In this document: positions 35,318-40,112 of the stretch, in pieces
How positions within the stretch are numbered: the stretch's first letter is position 1
Layout: the number at the start of each line of letters is the position of its first letter
Origin: Planctomycetota bacterium
GTDB taxonomy: Bacteria; Planctomycetota; UBA1135; UBA2386
DNA length: 64,000 bases
NCBI GenBank assembly: GCA_020848735.1
Contig: JADLHO010000170.1
Coordinates: 1 to 64,000, forward strand
Reading direction: 5' to 3'
The notes under the pieces: model-generated
What the model was told of the DNA's origin: nothing
Databases searched by the model: none
The model's input: only the letters and a program-made list of their open reading frames with translations
Program-made: the position numbers and the translations under genes

Positions 35318-36244
35318 CTACTTGGAGACCGTGCCCCCCGCATTGGGGGGCACGCTTCGACTCGGGATCGACAGCCAGCCGCTGTGGAGTTCGAGACGGA
35401 CGCTCGGCCCCCCGCGCCCGACGCGACCTCGACAGCGGTGGCCCTCGCCCTCGGCGAGGACCGGCAGGCCGAAGCCATTGCGGATGCCCAGCTTGCCCAC
35501 GGCGCTCTTCGTGACGGCCGCGTCGAGCTCGAAGTCGCCGTCCGCGGGCAGATCGATCTGCAACGATGGACCGTTGGTCCGGAGCTGCACGCCTTCCGCG
35601 GCGAGTTCGTCGACGCGCGCCACGATCGCGCCGCCGCTGAGGGTCGGGCGCTCCGGGTCACCCGACTGCGCGACGAGCGCCCCGCGGTGACCGACGACGA
35701 AGACCTTCCCGTCGAGAGTCGCGATGTCGGCGGAGGCCTGCGTGTCGCGCACGACCAGCTCGCCGAGGCCGGTCCGCAGCTTCACGGGAGCCTTGCGCGA
35801 GCGCGCCTCCAGCGTGCCCCGCTGCGTCGCGACGTCGATCGCCAACCCGGCCGGCAGGGACAGATACGCGCGGAAGATGATCGCCGACCGGGCGGGGTCG
35901 ACGCCCGCGGGCGCACTCGGGGTCGCGAACTCGTAGACGCCGGGCTCCTCGGTCGGCCGGAGTTCCGGGACGAAGCGGATCGCGGCAAGGGCCTCGAAGT
36001 CGTCGGGATCCGCGGCGCTCCGGCGGAGGCGGCCCTCGATGCGGAGCGACCGCTCGCCCTCGTGGGTCCCCACCGTGATGTCGCCGAGCGCCACACGGAC
36101 GCGGAGGGCCGTCATCGCCTCGGGCAGCTCGAGGCTGGTGGTGACGTCCGTGTCGAGCGAGTCGACGCCGCAGCCCGCAGCGCCGGCGAGCGACGCGATG
36201 GCGAGCCAGCGAACGCGGCGAGGGACGGACGACCGGTGGCGCAT
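35318..36244 (-). CDS. Lipoprotein with adhesin-like beta-solenoid domain (DUF4097-like)
   Basis: A 308-residue lipoprotein: signal peptide with lipobox LAGAAGC, so Cys25 would be lipidated. The mature part repeats short alternating strands (LRVRVALGDITVGTHEGE, LRTGLGELVVRDTQASADIA, VQLRTNGPSLQIDLPADGDF) resembling DUF4097 putative-adhesin repeats, which form beta-solenoids. It is probably anchored in the outer or inner membrane facing the periplasm. It is transcribed divergently from the Cys-repeat protein/ECF/anti-sigma genes and may belong to the same envelope function. TAGGAT lies eight bases before its ATG. Confidence 0.78.
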   Translation of the reverse strand: MRHRSSVPRRVRWLAIASLAGAAGCGVDSLDTDVTTSLELPEAMTALRVRVALGDITVGTHEGERSLRIEGRLRRSAADPDDFEALAAIRFVPELRPTEEPGVYEFATPSAPAGVDPARSAIIFRAYLSLPAGLAIDVATQRGTLEARSRKAPVKLRTGLGELVVRDTQASADIATLDGKVFVVGHRGALVAQSGDPERPTLSGGAIVARVDELAAEGVQLRTNGPSLQIDLPADGDFELDAAVTKSAVGKLGIRNGFGLPVLAEGEGHRCRGRVGRGGPSVRLELHSGWLSIPSRSVPPNAGGTVSK

Positions 36245-36258: not shown

Positions 36259-36489
36259 GCCCGGGTCATGGCCCCCGCCGCCCGCGCCTCGGTTCCAGCC
36301 ACGGCATCGTCCGGACCGAAGCCAGGCTGCGACGCGGCCGCGGGTACCGGGACGAGCTCCCTGGTCGCGACCGGAGTTCGCCCGCGAGCGGCGCGTTGGG
36401 CGCCCCTCGGACCGGTACCGTGGAGCTCGGGCTCGCGGCCGGACACCCGTCGCCGACGCGACCCCGATCGAAACACGAGGAACCACACG

Positions 36490-37584
36490 ATGAAGACCAT
36501 GCTGCCCTTCGCCGCCGGACTCTGCCTTGCCGTCGCGGCCCCGCTCGCCCGCGCCCAGGAGAAGCCGGGTATCGACCCCAGCCTGAGCCAGGAGATCCGG
36601 AAGATCGTGCGTGAGGAGCTCCGCCGCGCGATGAGCGAGATGCACGGGCAGCCGGCCGCGGTGGCCGAGGCGGTCGAGGAAGCCGTGCCGGTGCAGGGGC
36701 ACCGCATCGTGATGCGCAAGGGCCAGCAGATCGACGTCGCGAACCCGCGGGTCCGCGTGCTCGTCCAGGGCGGCGACGATGCGGAAGGCGGTGGACACGG
36801 CAACGGCACCGGCCACCACGTCGTCGTGCGGGGCCAGAAGCTCGAGGTCGCCGGCGATGCGCCGGCGAAGTCGCCCCGCGTCTTCCACCTCCATGACGGC
36901 AAGTTGGTCGAGGTCGAGGGCGGCCACGGCGCGATGTTCGTCGTTCCGGGCCACGCGACCGTGGAAGGCAAGCCGCTGCCGAAGGCCATCGAGGTCCGCC
37001 GCGCGGGCACCAAGGCCCAGGCGGGCGCCAAGAAGTCGAAGGGCACGGTCGTCGCTCTCGACGACGTGACCGAGGGCCAGCCGATCGCGGTCGAAGTCGA
37101 GGGCATCCTCGCCGAGGTGCGGGAGCAGCTCGACGAGATCGAGACCGTCGAGCTCGAGAACATCGCCGAGCAGATCAAGTCGATCGAGGGCGAGCTCGAG
37201 GGCGTCAAGATCGAGTTGCCCAAGATCGACACGACCGAGCTGCGCGGCAAGCTGCTCGAGGTGATCCACGGCCAGGAGGGCGCGCCGAAGGCGATGATCC
37301 TCCGCACGAAGAAGACCAGCGCCGAGGCGAAGGACTGCGAAGGCTGCACGGAGACCTGCACCGAGGCATGCACCGAGGCGTGCACCGAGGCGTGCACCGA
37401 GGCGTGCACCGAGGCGTGCACCGAGGCGAAGGCCGCCACGGAGTGCTGTGAGGAGAAGGCCGCGACCGAGTGCTGCGAGGGCGCCAAGGCCATCGAAGTG
37501 AAGACCAAGGCCGCGCCGACGCAGACGATCTTCGTGGCGCCGAAGGCCACCGCGAAGCCGAAGGCCGCCGGCAAGATCATGTGA
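36490..37584 (+). CDS. Exported coiled-coil protein with Cys-Thr-Glu-Ala repeats
   Basis: A 364-residue exported protein with signal peptide MKTMLPFAAGLCLAVAAPLA. A helical segment (IRKIVREELRRAMSEM) is followed by a Val/His-rich region with GHRIVMRKGQQIDV and HGAMFVVPGHATVEGK, and a long acidic coiled coil (about residues 205-255). Residues 283-329 contain 12 cysteines: CTET, then six perfect CTEA units, then two ECC pairs. Such regular cysteines in an exported protein suggest metal binding or disulfide cross-linking (inference). The C-terminus is Lys/Ala-rich. GAGGAA (36478-36483) is a Shine-Dalgarno sequence. An ECF sigma gene follows after 51 bases. Confidence 0.78.
   Translation: MKTMLPFAAGLCLAVAAPLARAQEKPGIDPSLSQEIRKIVREELRRAMSEMHGQPAAVAEAVEEAVPVQGHRIVMRKGQQIDVANPRVRVLVQGGDDAEGGGHGNGTGHHVVVRGQKLEVAGDAPAKSPRVFHLHDGKLVEVEGGHGAMFVVPGHATVEGKPLPKAIEVRRAGTKAQAGAKKSKGTVVALDDVTEGQPIAVEVEGILAEVREQLDEIETVELENIAEQIKSIEGELEGVKIELPKIDTTELRGKLLEVIHGQEGAPKAMILRTKKTSAEAKDCEGCTETCTEACTEACTEACTEACTEACTEAKAATECCEEKAATECCEGAKAIEVKTKAAPTQTIFVAPKATAKPKAAGKIM
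37345..37428 (+). repeat. Seven 12-bp tandem units encoding CTEA
   Basis: Seven in-frame 12-base units of the type TGCACCGAGGCG. Unit 1 is divergent (encodes CTET), unit 2 differs in its last base, and units 3-7 are identical. DNA identity beyond what the protein needs suggests recent slippage expansion and a copy number likely to vary between strains. Confidence 0.95.
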
Positions 37585-37635
37585 TGGGTGCGGCCGGGAG
37601 GCCGCACCGACTTGAGGTCCGAGTCCACCCCTGCC

Positions 37636-38193
37636 ATGCGAAACCAATCCGTGACGGCACCCGATCCGCTCGCGCTGGTTGCATTCAATCGCGCTGTCGC
37701 AGAGCACTCGGACGGCCTGAAGACCTTCGCCACGCGCATGCTCGGCGACTCGCTCGCCGCCGAGGACGTCGCACAGGACGCGTTCCTCGCGCTCTATCGG
37801 CATCTCGAGCAGATCCCGACGCCGGCCTTCAGGCCCTGGCTCTACCGGGTTGCCCGCAACCTCTGCCTCGATCAGCTCCGACGCCGCCGCTTCAAGCTGC
37901 GGCTCTTCCGCGACCTCGAGAAGGACGACGACAACCCGATGGTTCCCGTCGACCCCAGCGGCGGGACCCCCGACCAGATCGCCGAGGCCCGCGAGTCGCA
38001 GCAGCAGATCGAGGCGGCGATCGAGAAGATCCCCCCCCGTTTCCGCGAGGTGTTCCTGCTCTGTGAGCTGCAGGGCCTCAGCTACGAGGACGCCTCGGCG
38101 ATCCTCGGTTGTCCCGTGAAGACCATTTCGACTCGCCTCTTCCGAGCCCGACAGCGTTTCCGCGCCGCATTGGGCGACGCGGTGAAGGTGTGA
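37636..38193 (+). CDS. ECF-type RNA polymerase sigma factor
   Basis: A 185-residue ECF sigma factor of standard length. Region 2 has FATRMLGDSLAAEDVAQDAF and LYRHLEQIPTPAFRPWLYRV, then ARNLCLDQLRRRR; region 4 has IPPRFREVFLLCELQGLSYE and the HTH DASAILGCPVKTISTRLFRA, then RQRFR. The ATG at 37636 gives a normal N-terminus; a GTG at 37588 would add 16 unlikely residues. A membrane anti-sigma candidate follows five bases after the stop, and a Cys-repeat exported protein precedes it, so this is a conventional ECF/anti-sigma system, unlike the two kinase-linked ECFs in the window. Confidence 0.9.
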   Translation: MRNQSVTAPDPLALVAFNRAVAEHSDGLKTFATRMLGDSLAAEDVAQDAFLALYRHLEQIPTPAFRPWLYRVARNLCLDQLRRRRFKLRLFRDLEKDDDNPMVPVDPSGGTPDQIAEARESQQQIEAAIEKIPPRFREVFLLCELQGLSYEDASAILGCPVKTISTRLFRARQRFRAALGDAVKV

Positions 38194-38198
38194 ACCCC

Positions 38199-39395
38199 AT
38201 GGATCGCAAGCGACTCGAACAGGAGCTCTCGCTCCACCTCGACGGACGCCTGCCGAGCGGGCGACGCGAGCGTCTCCTGGACACGCTCGACGACGACGCC
38301 GACGCGGCGCGTCTGCTCGCCGAAATGGAGCACGCCCAGGTACTCGCGCGCTCCTTGCCGAACTCCACGGTCGGCGCCGGATTCACCGAAGACCTCTGGC
38401 AGCGGATCCGCTCCGGCGAAGGGACTCCCGACGCCGTCTTCCGCGAGCCGCTGCCCTGGATCGTCAAGGCGCGCTACGTGCTCACCGGTGCCGCCGCCGC
38501 GGCGATCATGCTCGTCGCCGCGAGTCTCGCGGCCGACGCGTTCCGCGAGCCCGCGGACGTCGATCCCGCACCGCAGGACACTCAGGTCGCGCGCGTCGAA
38601 GCGCCGGTCTCCGACCAGGCCGGAAACGCGCCGATCGCACGGACCGAGGCGGTCGACGTCGCGGACGAGAAGGACCTCGCCTCCCCGCCCGGTCTCTACC
38701 CGATCTCCGCGTTCTCGGTCGCCCAGGCCGGCCAGGACGCCTGTCTCCAGGCCGTGCGTGATCTCAAGCACCGCGCGCCGGGAGTCGCGGAACGACTGGG
38801 CCGCGATGAGTTGCGCAACGTGGTCGTCGACATCGAACCGGTGGTCGAGCGCGCGCGCGGCTCCACGCGCGTGATCCGCTGGCTGCAGGACGAGCGCATG
38901 ATCCAGCTGCCGTCCGACTTCGACGTGGCGCTCACCTTGACCGAGCGCATCATCGGGCGCATCGCGCGCGCGCATGCGGAGAACGACTCGGTGCAGTTCC
39001 GCGTCGCGGTCGACGACATCCAGCAGCTCGACGTCGAACCCCTGCACCGCAACTTCGACGTCGTCTGCTGCAGCGACACGAGTGAATTCCTCGAGCGCCT
39101 GAAGAACGAGTTCGTCCGCGACCCCGACATGCGACGGACGATCCGCGTCCGCGTGATGGGGGGCACGACCCTGCGCGAGGGCTTTGCGCTCTTCGGCGAC
39201 CCGCTCGAGCCGATGGCCCCCTTCGGCCTGATCGAACTCGGCCCGCAGGGATCGCTGCGCATCGAGGCGATGACCCTCGAGCACGGCGGCGGACAGCGTC
39301 TCCACGTGATCCGCTCCACCGAGGGCAGCCCGCTCGACTCGACGCTACCGCGGCGGCTCGAACCGCGCGCGACGAAGGGCCAGCGCGGCAACTGA
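38199..39395 (+). CDS. Single-pass membrane protein, anti-sigma factor candidate
   Basis: A 398-residue protein. The cytoplasmic N-terminus (DRKRLEQELSLHLDGRLPSG, then RRERLLDTLDDDADAARLLAEM) has the 'L..yLDGeL...' layout of anti-sigma domains but lacks the zinc-binding HxxxCxxC. A membrane helix lies at about residues 100-122 (VLTGAAAAAIMLVAASLAAD). The large outer part of about 270 residues (VERLGRDELRNVVVDIEPVV, ALTLTERIIGRIARAHAEND) is not recognised and may be the sensor. The ATG at 38199 is five bases after the sigma stop; a GTG at 38190 overlapping that stop is an alternative start. Confidence 0.75.
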   Translation: MDRKRLEQELSLHLDGRLPSGRRERLLDTLDDDADAARLLAEMEHAQVLARSLPNSTVGAGFTEDLWQRIRSGEGTPDAVFREPLPWIVKARYVLTGAAAAAIMLVAASLAADAFREPADVDPAPQDTQVARVEAPVSDQAGNAPIARTEAVDVADEKDLASPPGLYPISAFSVAQAGQDACLQAVRDLKHRAPGVAERLGRDELRNVVVDIEPVVERARGSTRVIRWLQDERMIQLPSDFDVALTLTERIIGRIARAHAENDSVQFRVAVDDIQQLDVEPLHRNFDVVCCSDTSEFLERLKNEFVRDPDMRRTIRVRVMGGTTLREGFALFGDPLEPMAPFGLIELGPQGSLRIEAMTLEHGGGQRLHVIRSTEGSPLDSTLPRRLEPRATKGQRGN

Positions 39396-39401
39396 CGCCC
39401 G

Positions 39402-40112
39402 TCAATCGCGCGGCAAGCGGCGCATCGCGCGCTGCGGCTGCGCGAGCGGCCATGCCAGCAGCATGCCGGCGATGAAGCCGCCGGCGTGAGCCCACCACGC
39501 GACGCCGCCGGCTCCGTCCGGGCCCAGCGATCCCTGCAGGATCTGGATCCCGAACCAGATGCCGAGGAAGACGAACGCGGGCCAGACCGCGGTCAGGAAG
39601 ATCCAGCCGAGCGGGATCAGGGTGAGCACGTGCGCACGCGGGAACAGCACCACGTAGGCGCCGAGCACGCCGCTCACCGCGCCGGAGGCGCCGATCATCG
39701 GCTGGCCGTAGGCCGGATCGGCCAGGATCTGCGAGGCGAGCGCGGCGGCACCCGACGCGAAGTACAGGACGAGGTAGCGGAATCGGCCGAGCCGATCCTC
39801 GACGTTGTCGCCGAAGACCCAGACGAACCACATGTTGCCGAGGATGTGCAGCCAGCCGCCGTGCAACCACATGTGCGTCAGCGCGCGCAGCACGCGACGA
39901 CCATCGTCGTCGACCGGCGGGATCAGACCATCGGGCGCGCGGATCACCGACGGCTCGGCGCCGCTGTAATGGAAGGCGACGGCGCCGTAGCGCGTGACGG
40001 CGTCCTCGAGCTGGCCCGACGTCAGGATGAAGATCAGCGCATTGACCGCGATGATCGCGACCGACACGACCGGGAATCGCTGCGTCGGATTGATGTCGCG
40101 GAGCGGGATCAT
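39402..40112 (-). CDS. Rhomboid-family intramembrane serine protease
   Basis: A 236-residue membrane protein with six or so helices. The rhomboid core is intact: HGGWLHILGNMWFVWVFG (loop 1 and helix 2), the nucleophile Ser143 in IGASGAVSGVLGAY, and the partner His209 in WWAHAGGFIAGMLL. Rhomboids cleave within transmembrane helices of substrate proteins; the substrate here is unknown. Its ATG overlaps the stop of the large hydrolase gene by four bases, and its stop is six bases from the convergent anti-sigma candidate. Confidence 0.92.
   Translation of the reverse strand: MIPLRDINPTQRFPVVSVAIIAVNALIFILTSGQLEDAVTRYGAVAFHYSGAEPSVIRAPDGLIPPVDDDGRRVLRALTHMWLHGGWLHILGNMWFVWVFGDNVEDRLGRFRYLVLYFASGAAALASQILADPAYGQPMIGASGAVSGVLGAYVVLFPRAHVLTLIPLGWIFLTAVWPAFVFLGIWFGIQILQGSLGPDGAGGVAWWAHAGGFIAGMLLAWPLAQPQRAMRRLPRD

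Follow-up and report, generated by a model that had tools for sequence, protein, structure and literature searches.

A lineage-specific exported cysteine-rich protein encoded behind the predicted promoter of an envelope ECF sigma factor in a planctomycete family

RESULTS

An exported Cys-rich protein is encoded in front of an ECF sigma/anti-sigma pair.

The DNA analyzed here (the window) is a 64-kb stretch from the genome of an uncultured planctomycete (6.44 Mb in 277 contigs; 89% complete). The closest sigma factors with named hosts belong to uncultured Planctomycetota. The features of the locus and its neighbors are as follows.

35318 to 36244, minus strand: divergent predicted lipoprotein, conserved upstream neighbor, with no Pfam match
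36373 to 36397, plus strand: GGAGTTC-N14-CGTT, a predicted ECF-type promoter upstream of the Cys gene; the sole match in the 64-kb window
36490 to 37584, plus strand: exported Cys-rich protein, 364 residues; an ORF with homologues in G001, G011, G018, and G023 and a partial homologue in G017
36490 to 36555, plus strand: signal peptide, residues 1 to 22, ending ARA/Q, read by eye from the sequence
36577 to 36642, plus strand: post-signal helix, residues 30 to 51, with the motif R...[IV]REE...A, from the alignment and the model (pLDDT about 70)
37336 to 37476, plus strand: Cys array, 12 Cys in residues 283 to 329, with CTEA repeats and two ECC pairs
37587 to 37608, plus strand: hairpin with a 9-bp stem and no T run, between the Cys gene and the sigma gene
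37636 to 38193, plus strand: ECF sigma factor, 185 residues, from Pfam
38199 to 39395, plus strand: membrane anti-sigma factor, 398 residues, with homologues in 34 of 34 family genomes
38709 to 39158, plus strand: predicted extracytoplasmic four-helix bundle of the anti-sigma factor, residues 171 to 320, with vicinal Cys290-Cys291
39402 to 40112, minus strand: convergent rhomboid protease, downstream neighbor (Pfam Rhomboid, 1.7e-36)

The Cys gene is separated from the sigma gene by 51 bases, and the sigma gene is separated from the anti-sigma gene by five bases. This gene order, an exported protein followed by an ECF sigma factor and then a membrane anti-sigma factor, agrees with an earlier sequence-only reading of the window.

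The signal peptide of the Cys protein, assigned by eye as were all signal peptides in this study, is MKTMLPFAAGLCLAVAAPLARA/Q. The protein contains 13 Cys, and the claim that 12 of them fall within 47 residues proved exact (residues 283 to 329); the spacings among these 12 are 3, 4, 4, 4, 4, 4, 4, 9, 1, 8, and 1. Tandem Repeats Finder reported a 12-bp unit repeated 7.4 times at 37341 to 37428 with a score of 141, the top score of the 22 arrays in the window. When read in the TGC frame, the array opens with a CTET unit (TGCACGGAGACC), which is followed by a CTEA unit carrying GCA as a synonymous change and then by five identical CTEA units. The description of the 12-bp repeats as identical therefore holds for the five CTEA units and fails for the CTET unit and the unit with the synonymous change. 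Two ECC pairs, also described previously, follow the CTEA units. Among 262 predicted neighbor proteins, the background level of Cys was 1.1%, and densities above six Cys per 50 residues were restricted to the Cys-protein family.

Searches of Pfam and NCBIfam assigned the Cys protein to no family above the cutoffs, and the matches from a sequence search of the PDB were all weak, involving designed coiled coils and unrelated proteins. AlphaFold produced no fold for the Cys region, and the model of the protein (pLDDT 36) was not used for a fold search; the post-signal helix was the sole mature region modeled with any confidence. Of the coiled coil that had been proposed, a helix at residues 208 to 235 was weakly predicted (pLDDT about 44) and nothing beyond it. 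The gene is considered real because homologues are present at the same place in five other genomes.

The sigma factor is conserved throughout the family, and its partner in the window is a membrane anti-sigma factor without the zinc motif.

The sigma factor matched Sigma70_r2 (residues 21 to 85; 4e-19) and Sigma70_r4_2 (residues 123 to 174; 1e-16), both above the Pfam cutoffs. Regions 2 and 4 are thus present without region 3, as in ECF (sigma-70 group IV) factors. Its three Cys are scattered (residues 77, 143, and 159).

Conservation was assessed in 34 family genomes, one per species, with the window genome designated G000. These are drafts, mostly metagenome derived, and genes in the relatives were called with a simple codon model made for this analysis. 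The sigma factor was found in all 34 genomes at 64 to 90% identity, and so was the anti-sigma factor. The surroundings of the pair are conserved as well, with the divergent predicted lipoprotein upstream and then a Fis-type regulator.

The anti-sigma factor has a single TM at about residues 93 to 115. Its N-terminal predicted helices (residues 3 to 14, 20 to 32, and 34 to 52; pLDDT over 90) make up the anti-sigma domain, and its gene adjoins the sigma gene, an arrangement characteristic of the ASDI group. The sequence-only reading had called this protein a candidate non-zinc membrane anti-sigma factor with a 270-residue outer domain. The former was confirmed: with one TM and no Hx3Cx2C motif, the protein lies outside the zinc-binding anti-sigma (ZAS) group. 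The outer part covers residues 116 to 398, with a confident structure limited to the four helices of residues 171 to 320 (pLDDT over 90). A fold search with the anti-sigma factor returned generic four-helix bundles only (best E value, 0.1), which were given no weight, and no significant match in the PDB. An N-terminal anti-sigma domain on a one-TM protein is also found in ASDI proteins (PMC7406223); the unmatched outer bundle of four helices, with its clade-specific Cys-Cys pair, distinguishes this protein from them.

The Hx3Cx2C motif was present in 25 of 29 aligned anti-sigma homologues and absent from the window protein and those of G001, G007, and G015; the G011 homologue scored above the PF13490 cutoff. 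Most simply, these sequences suggest that the zinc motif was lost once, in the clade of G015, G007, G000, and G001. Mixed zinc and non-zinc members are already known in the ASDI group (PMC7406223). The idea that the loss of zinc is tied to the Cys protein was considered and rejected, as this loss is most simply a single event and some zinc-type genomes also encode the Cys protein.

The vicinal Cys290-Cys291 pair in the outer bundle (window positions 39066 to 39071) was found in six of the 29 aligned homologues, which are six of the seven members of one clade, and nowhere else. This pair is a possible thiol sensor. A connection between it and the Cys protein was likewise rejected, as the two do not track.

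The convergent rhomboid gene is found in the zinc-loss clade, where G001, G007, and G015 have a similar gene at the position that it occupies in G000; the rhomboid might be a protease that cuts the anti-sigma factor. In the zinc-type clade (loci L040 to L064), the gene behind anti-sigma usually encodes an exported protein of roughly 600 residues, and the one such protein tested (L047:6554-8458) contains HEAT and VWA domains.

The Cys gene is present in a few lineages and evolves quickly.

The position upstream of sigma (the slot) was assembled in 32 family genomes; G021 and G033 were left out of the count. The Cys protein was found in six of these 32 genomes, always directly upstream of sigma: it is complete in G000, G001, G011, G018, and G023, and in G017 only a fragment is present, at the edge of a contig. 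Gene maps showed that the remaining 26 genomes keep the sigma/anti-sigma pair without the Cys gene. The lipoprotein gene comes next in 21 of these noncarriers, and the slot of the other five (G004, G009, G013, G014, and G015) encodes a different protein. The only one of these tested, at locus L036, matched Asp_protease_2 in Pfam (1.7e-22) and is of a TPR/retropepsin-like type; an FVVDTGA-type motif is also visible in the slot proteins of G009, G014, and G015. The slot loci with this TPR/aspartyl-protease-type protein are L035, L036, L037, and L039, in which it lies outside the sigma promoter described below.

A profile search of 154 genomes of the order found no homologue of the Cys protein away from the slot, and a search of the class returned the same set. 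A weak match in G142 was dropped, as its only common feature was a helix after a TM. In the sigma/anti-sigma tree, the carriers occupy three separate places, and therefore the Cys gene must have undergone several losses or gains.

Alignment of the five complete proteins showed two features common to all: a signal peptide end AQ and the post-signal helix with R...[IV]REE...A. The tails differ, with CTEACTEA in the window protein, CCEACCEACK in G001, ECCEAAKEAAECCEVAK in G011, ECEECEAECEEECEEEECC in G018, and CCEACTLPCC in G023. The four other complete proteins contain 7 to 10 Cys per 50 residues, and thus the density of Cys is conserved across homologues while the spacing is variable. The view that the CTEA repeat is the essential feature of the protein was not supported by the comparison: among family genomes the repeat is confined to the window species, and the relative in the same genus has KDAEDCCEACCEACKSASCC in place of the array. 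Judged from these sequences, the exact CTEA repeat is a recent, species-level detail. The sequence-only reading had proposed to look for relatives that keep the operon without the repeat; the 26 genomes that keep the pair without the gene indicate that the array is dispensable.

A predicted sigma promoter precedes the Cys gene.

When 29 upstream regions were searched blindly for spaced words, GGAGT-N16-CGTC was recovered in 18 of them, compared with at most five for any word pair in shuffled sequences. The relaxed form, GGAGTT-N14..16-CGT, was found ahead of the operon in 24 of 29 family genomes (Markov expectation, 0.045), and the controls, the reversed motif and the opposite strand, gave 0 of 29 each. 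This distribution is consistent with the own promoter of an ECF factor. In four of the five genomes without the relaxed motif (G009, G013, G014, and G015), the region tested was that upstream of the protease-type gene; in these genomes the motif, as a one-base variant in G009, lies between the protease-type gene and sigma, directly before sigma. The remaining genome, G007, carries GGAGTAA as a variant. In G000, G001, G011, G018, and G023, the motif is ahead of the Cys gene, and none is present between the Cys gene and sigma. Therefore, the Cys gene is inside the predicted sigma promoter and the protease-type gene is outside it. Control of the Cys gene by its own sigma factor, as suggested in the sequence-only reading, is supported by this predicted promoter, which precedes the Cys gene in the five readable genomes and directly precedes sigma elsewhere. 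The Cys protein is probably made only when sigma is switched on.

The intergenic hairpin is GC rich and comes after the stop codon of the Cys gene; its region has a folding energy of −28 kcal/mol (z about −2). Hairpins at the same place have a different sequence in G001, are weaker in G011, and are absent in G018 and G023; the statistics are modest (z about −2, −1, and −1.4). The hairpin could reduce read-through into sigma or protect the Cys message, so that more effector than sigma would be made. Rfam gave no match in the 35- to 40-kb region of the window.

Other predicted targets of the sigma factor are envelope genes.

The exact motif recurs in ten genomes of the zinc-type clade before an operon encoding a GldA-like ABC ATPase, an ABC2/ABC_transp_aux permease, and a DUF4340 protein, in that order. 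It lies about 190 to 230 nucleotides upstream (G018:C33, G019:C20, G017:C173, G023:C503, and six more; L209 to L212), and an eleventh genome, G011, has the relaxed motif before this operon. The nearest ABC ATPase homologues in the clade of the window (L216 to L221) have no motif, and GGAGTT-type matches occur near more distant ABC ATPase paralogues (L222 to L225).

In G000 and G001, the motif is found 120 and 30 nucleotides, respectively, before a gene for a membrane-anchored CarboxypepD_reg protein of 998 and 994 residues (G000:C112:62948-66085; homologues L207, L208, and L241 to L260) with six to seven repeats. At least 28 of the 34 family genomes encode this protein, often on the same contig as sigma, and the relaxed motif was present in 15 of 22 of its upstream regions (Markov mean, 0.14). 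A degenerate pattern searched genome-wide in G000 and G001 gave 9 and 8 matches, the same as the controls (9 and 8), and so only the two sites common to both genomes were trusted. From these predicted sites, the core regulon looks like one of envelope maintenance. No metal transport gene was seen in the predicted regulon, and thus a metal signal is not indicated.

DISCUSSION

Our preferred reading, a tentative one, is that the operon is an autoregulated ECF unit of an envelope regulon and that the Cys protein is a sigma-driven thiol or metal sink. On the sequence evidence, the Cys protein belongs to a conserved envelope regulon, as a member that is driven by sigma and specific to certain lineages, and a role as an effector fits better than one as a sensor. 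From the promoter position, the gene order, the family distribution, and a Cys density that is conserved without conserved spacing, we infer the following series of steps. In one family of planctomycetes, the ECF sigma/anti-sigma unit would control a small conserved envelope regulon, and in a few lineages, that of the window among them, a gene for an exported thiol-rich protein lies between the predicted sigma promoter and the sigma gene. A signal at the envelope would free sigma from the membrane anti-sigma factor, and the freed sigma would transcribe its own operon, such that synthesis of the Cys protein would come first and keep pace with that of sigma. Once exported, the protein, in which about ten Cys lie close together among Glu residues and His occurs at other positions, would act as a periplasmic or surface thiol buffer that takes up a thiophilic metal or an oxidant.

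A structural role is possible but less probable, in which intermolecular disulfides of the tail would build or strengthen an envelope layer when sigma is active. Cys-rich, cross-linked wall proteins are known in planctomycetes. The predicted regulon is of an envelope type, with the large CarboxypepD_reg repeat protein and the Gld-like ABC/DUF4340 operon, and Cys spacing drifts freely while density is kept, both of which are consistent with cross-linking. However, the Cys protein has no known cross-linking domain and no Pfam match, its gene is missing in the 26 genomes that have the sigma pair, and a Glu-rich stretch with Cys at regular i,i+4 positions would fit metal thiolates as well. Against the sink, tails with CC and CxxxC would allow disulfide cross-links just as readily. 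The sink is favored over the cross-linker by little, because the envelope regulon slightly favors the latter and the regular CxxxC/CC pattern in a Glu-rich tail favors the former.

It is improbable that the Cys protein instead meets the outer bundle of the anti-sigma factor and tunes the release of sigma by redox state or metal, as CnrX does for CnrY. The two proteins are encoded in one operon and predicted to share one compartment, and a vicinal Cys290-Cys291 pair is present in the outer domain of the window clade; however, 26 genomes keep the pair of regulators but have no Cys protein, and the Cys-Cys pair is present in G007, G013, G014, and G015, which have no Cys protein, and missing in the carriers G011, G018, and G023. 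The 26 genomes that keep the pair alone also make a required-sensor role for the Cys protein unlikely. CnrX, by comparison, is the dedicated sensor of CnrYXH.

About as improbable is the idea that the tail arose by low-complexity drift and serves no specific function, with the gene a passenger of the promoter. Its absence from most family genomes, its rapid divergence, and the five identical units, which suggest slippage, would be explained by drift, but dense Cys has been kept in three separate branches of the tree, compared with about 1% Cys elsewhere in these loci. A RiPP precursor of the bufferin/MNIO kind, in which the Cys would be enzymatically changed into a metal chelator, is very unlikely: exported Cys-containing products are known beside ECF/anti-sigma pairs, as for gigPABT with rpoQ-rsqA (PMC10304878), but the 89% complete window genome contains no MNIO enzyme (PF05114), for which control genomes were positive, no Pfam precursor family was matched, and 364 residues is long for such a precursor.

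Among known systems, the closest arrangements are gigPABT/rpoQ-rsqA and CnrYXH, and the closest chemistry would be that of copper storage proteins and metallothioneins; several features that define these systems are lacking here. As in CnrYXH and NccYXH, a (predicted) periplasmic protein is encoded with an ECF sigma and an anti-sigma factor; unlike CnrX, which is a required partner conserved with its anti-sigma factor, the Cys protein is absent from 26 family genomes that have the pair. In Cupriavidus metallidurans, the copper- and gold-induced GigP is exported and has 4 Cys in 72 residues (PMC10304878), and both loci have an exported Cys protein beside an ECF sigma/membrane anti-sigma pair. 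However, the gig genes run divergently from rpoQ, with different partner genes and no proven control by RpoQ, whereas the Cys gene described here is inside the sigma operon; the window protein is also larger than GigP and unrelated to it, and the window genome has no MNIO enzyme.

The copper storage proteins Csp1 and Csp3 carry many Cys inside a helical protein, and Csp1 is predicted to be exported (PMC10155185). The window protein differs in that Pfam gives it no Csp match and its Cys region is not predicted to form a helix bundle. In CorE-type copper sigma factors, a Cys-rich domain is fused to sigma and there is no linked anti-sigma factor (PMC3107203). A Cys-rich stretch is linked to an ECF sigma factor here too, but on a separate protein, and the window sigma has only its three scattered Cys. 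The many Cys of the window protein, in CC/CxxC/CxxxC spacing, would be compatible with a metallothionein-like metal buffer.

These results provide a sequence-defined ECF regulon for an uncultured planctomycete family, with a promoter motif, envelope targets, and a lineage-specific Cys-rich effector. The role of Cys-rich exported envelope proteins is testable in this family because the promoter, the partners, and natural genomes with and without the gene are known. More speculatively, and with rather low confidence, the Cys proteins may represent a new family, exported, rich in thiols, and quick to evolve, that planctomycetes place directly under the control of an envelope ECF sigma factor as an inducible thiol shield in which Cys density is selected and which possibly feeds back on the vicinal Cys sensor of the anti-sigma factor. 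The CTEA array itself illustrates the speed at which such a thiol tail can be remade.
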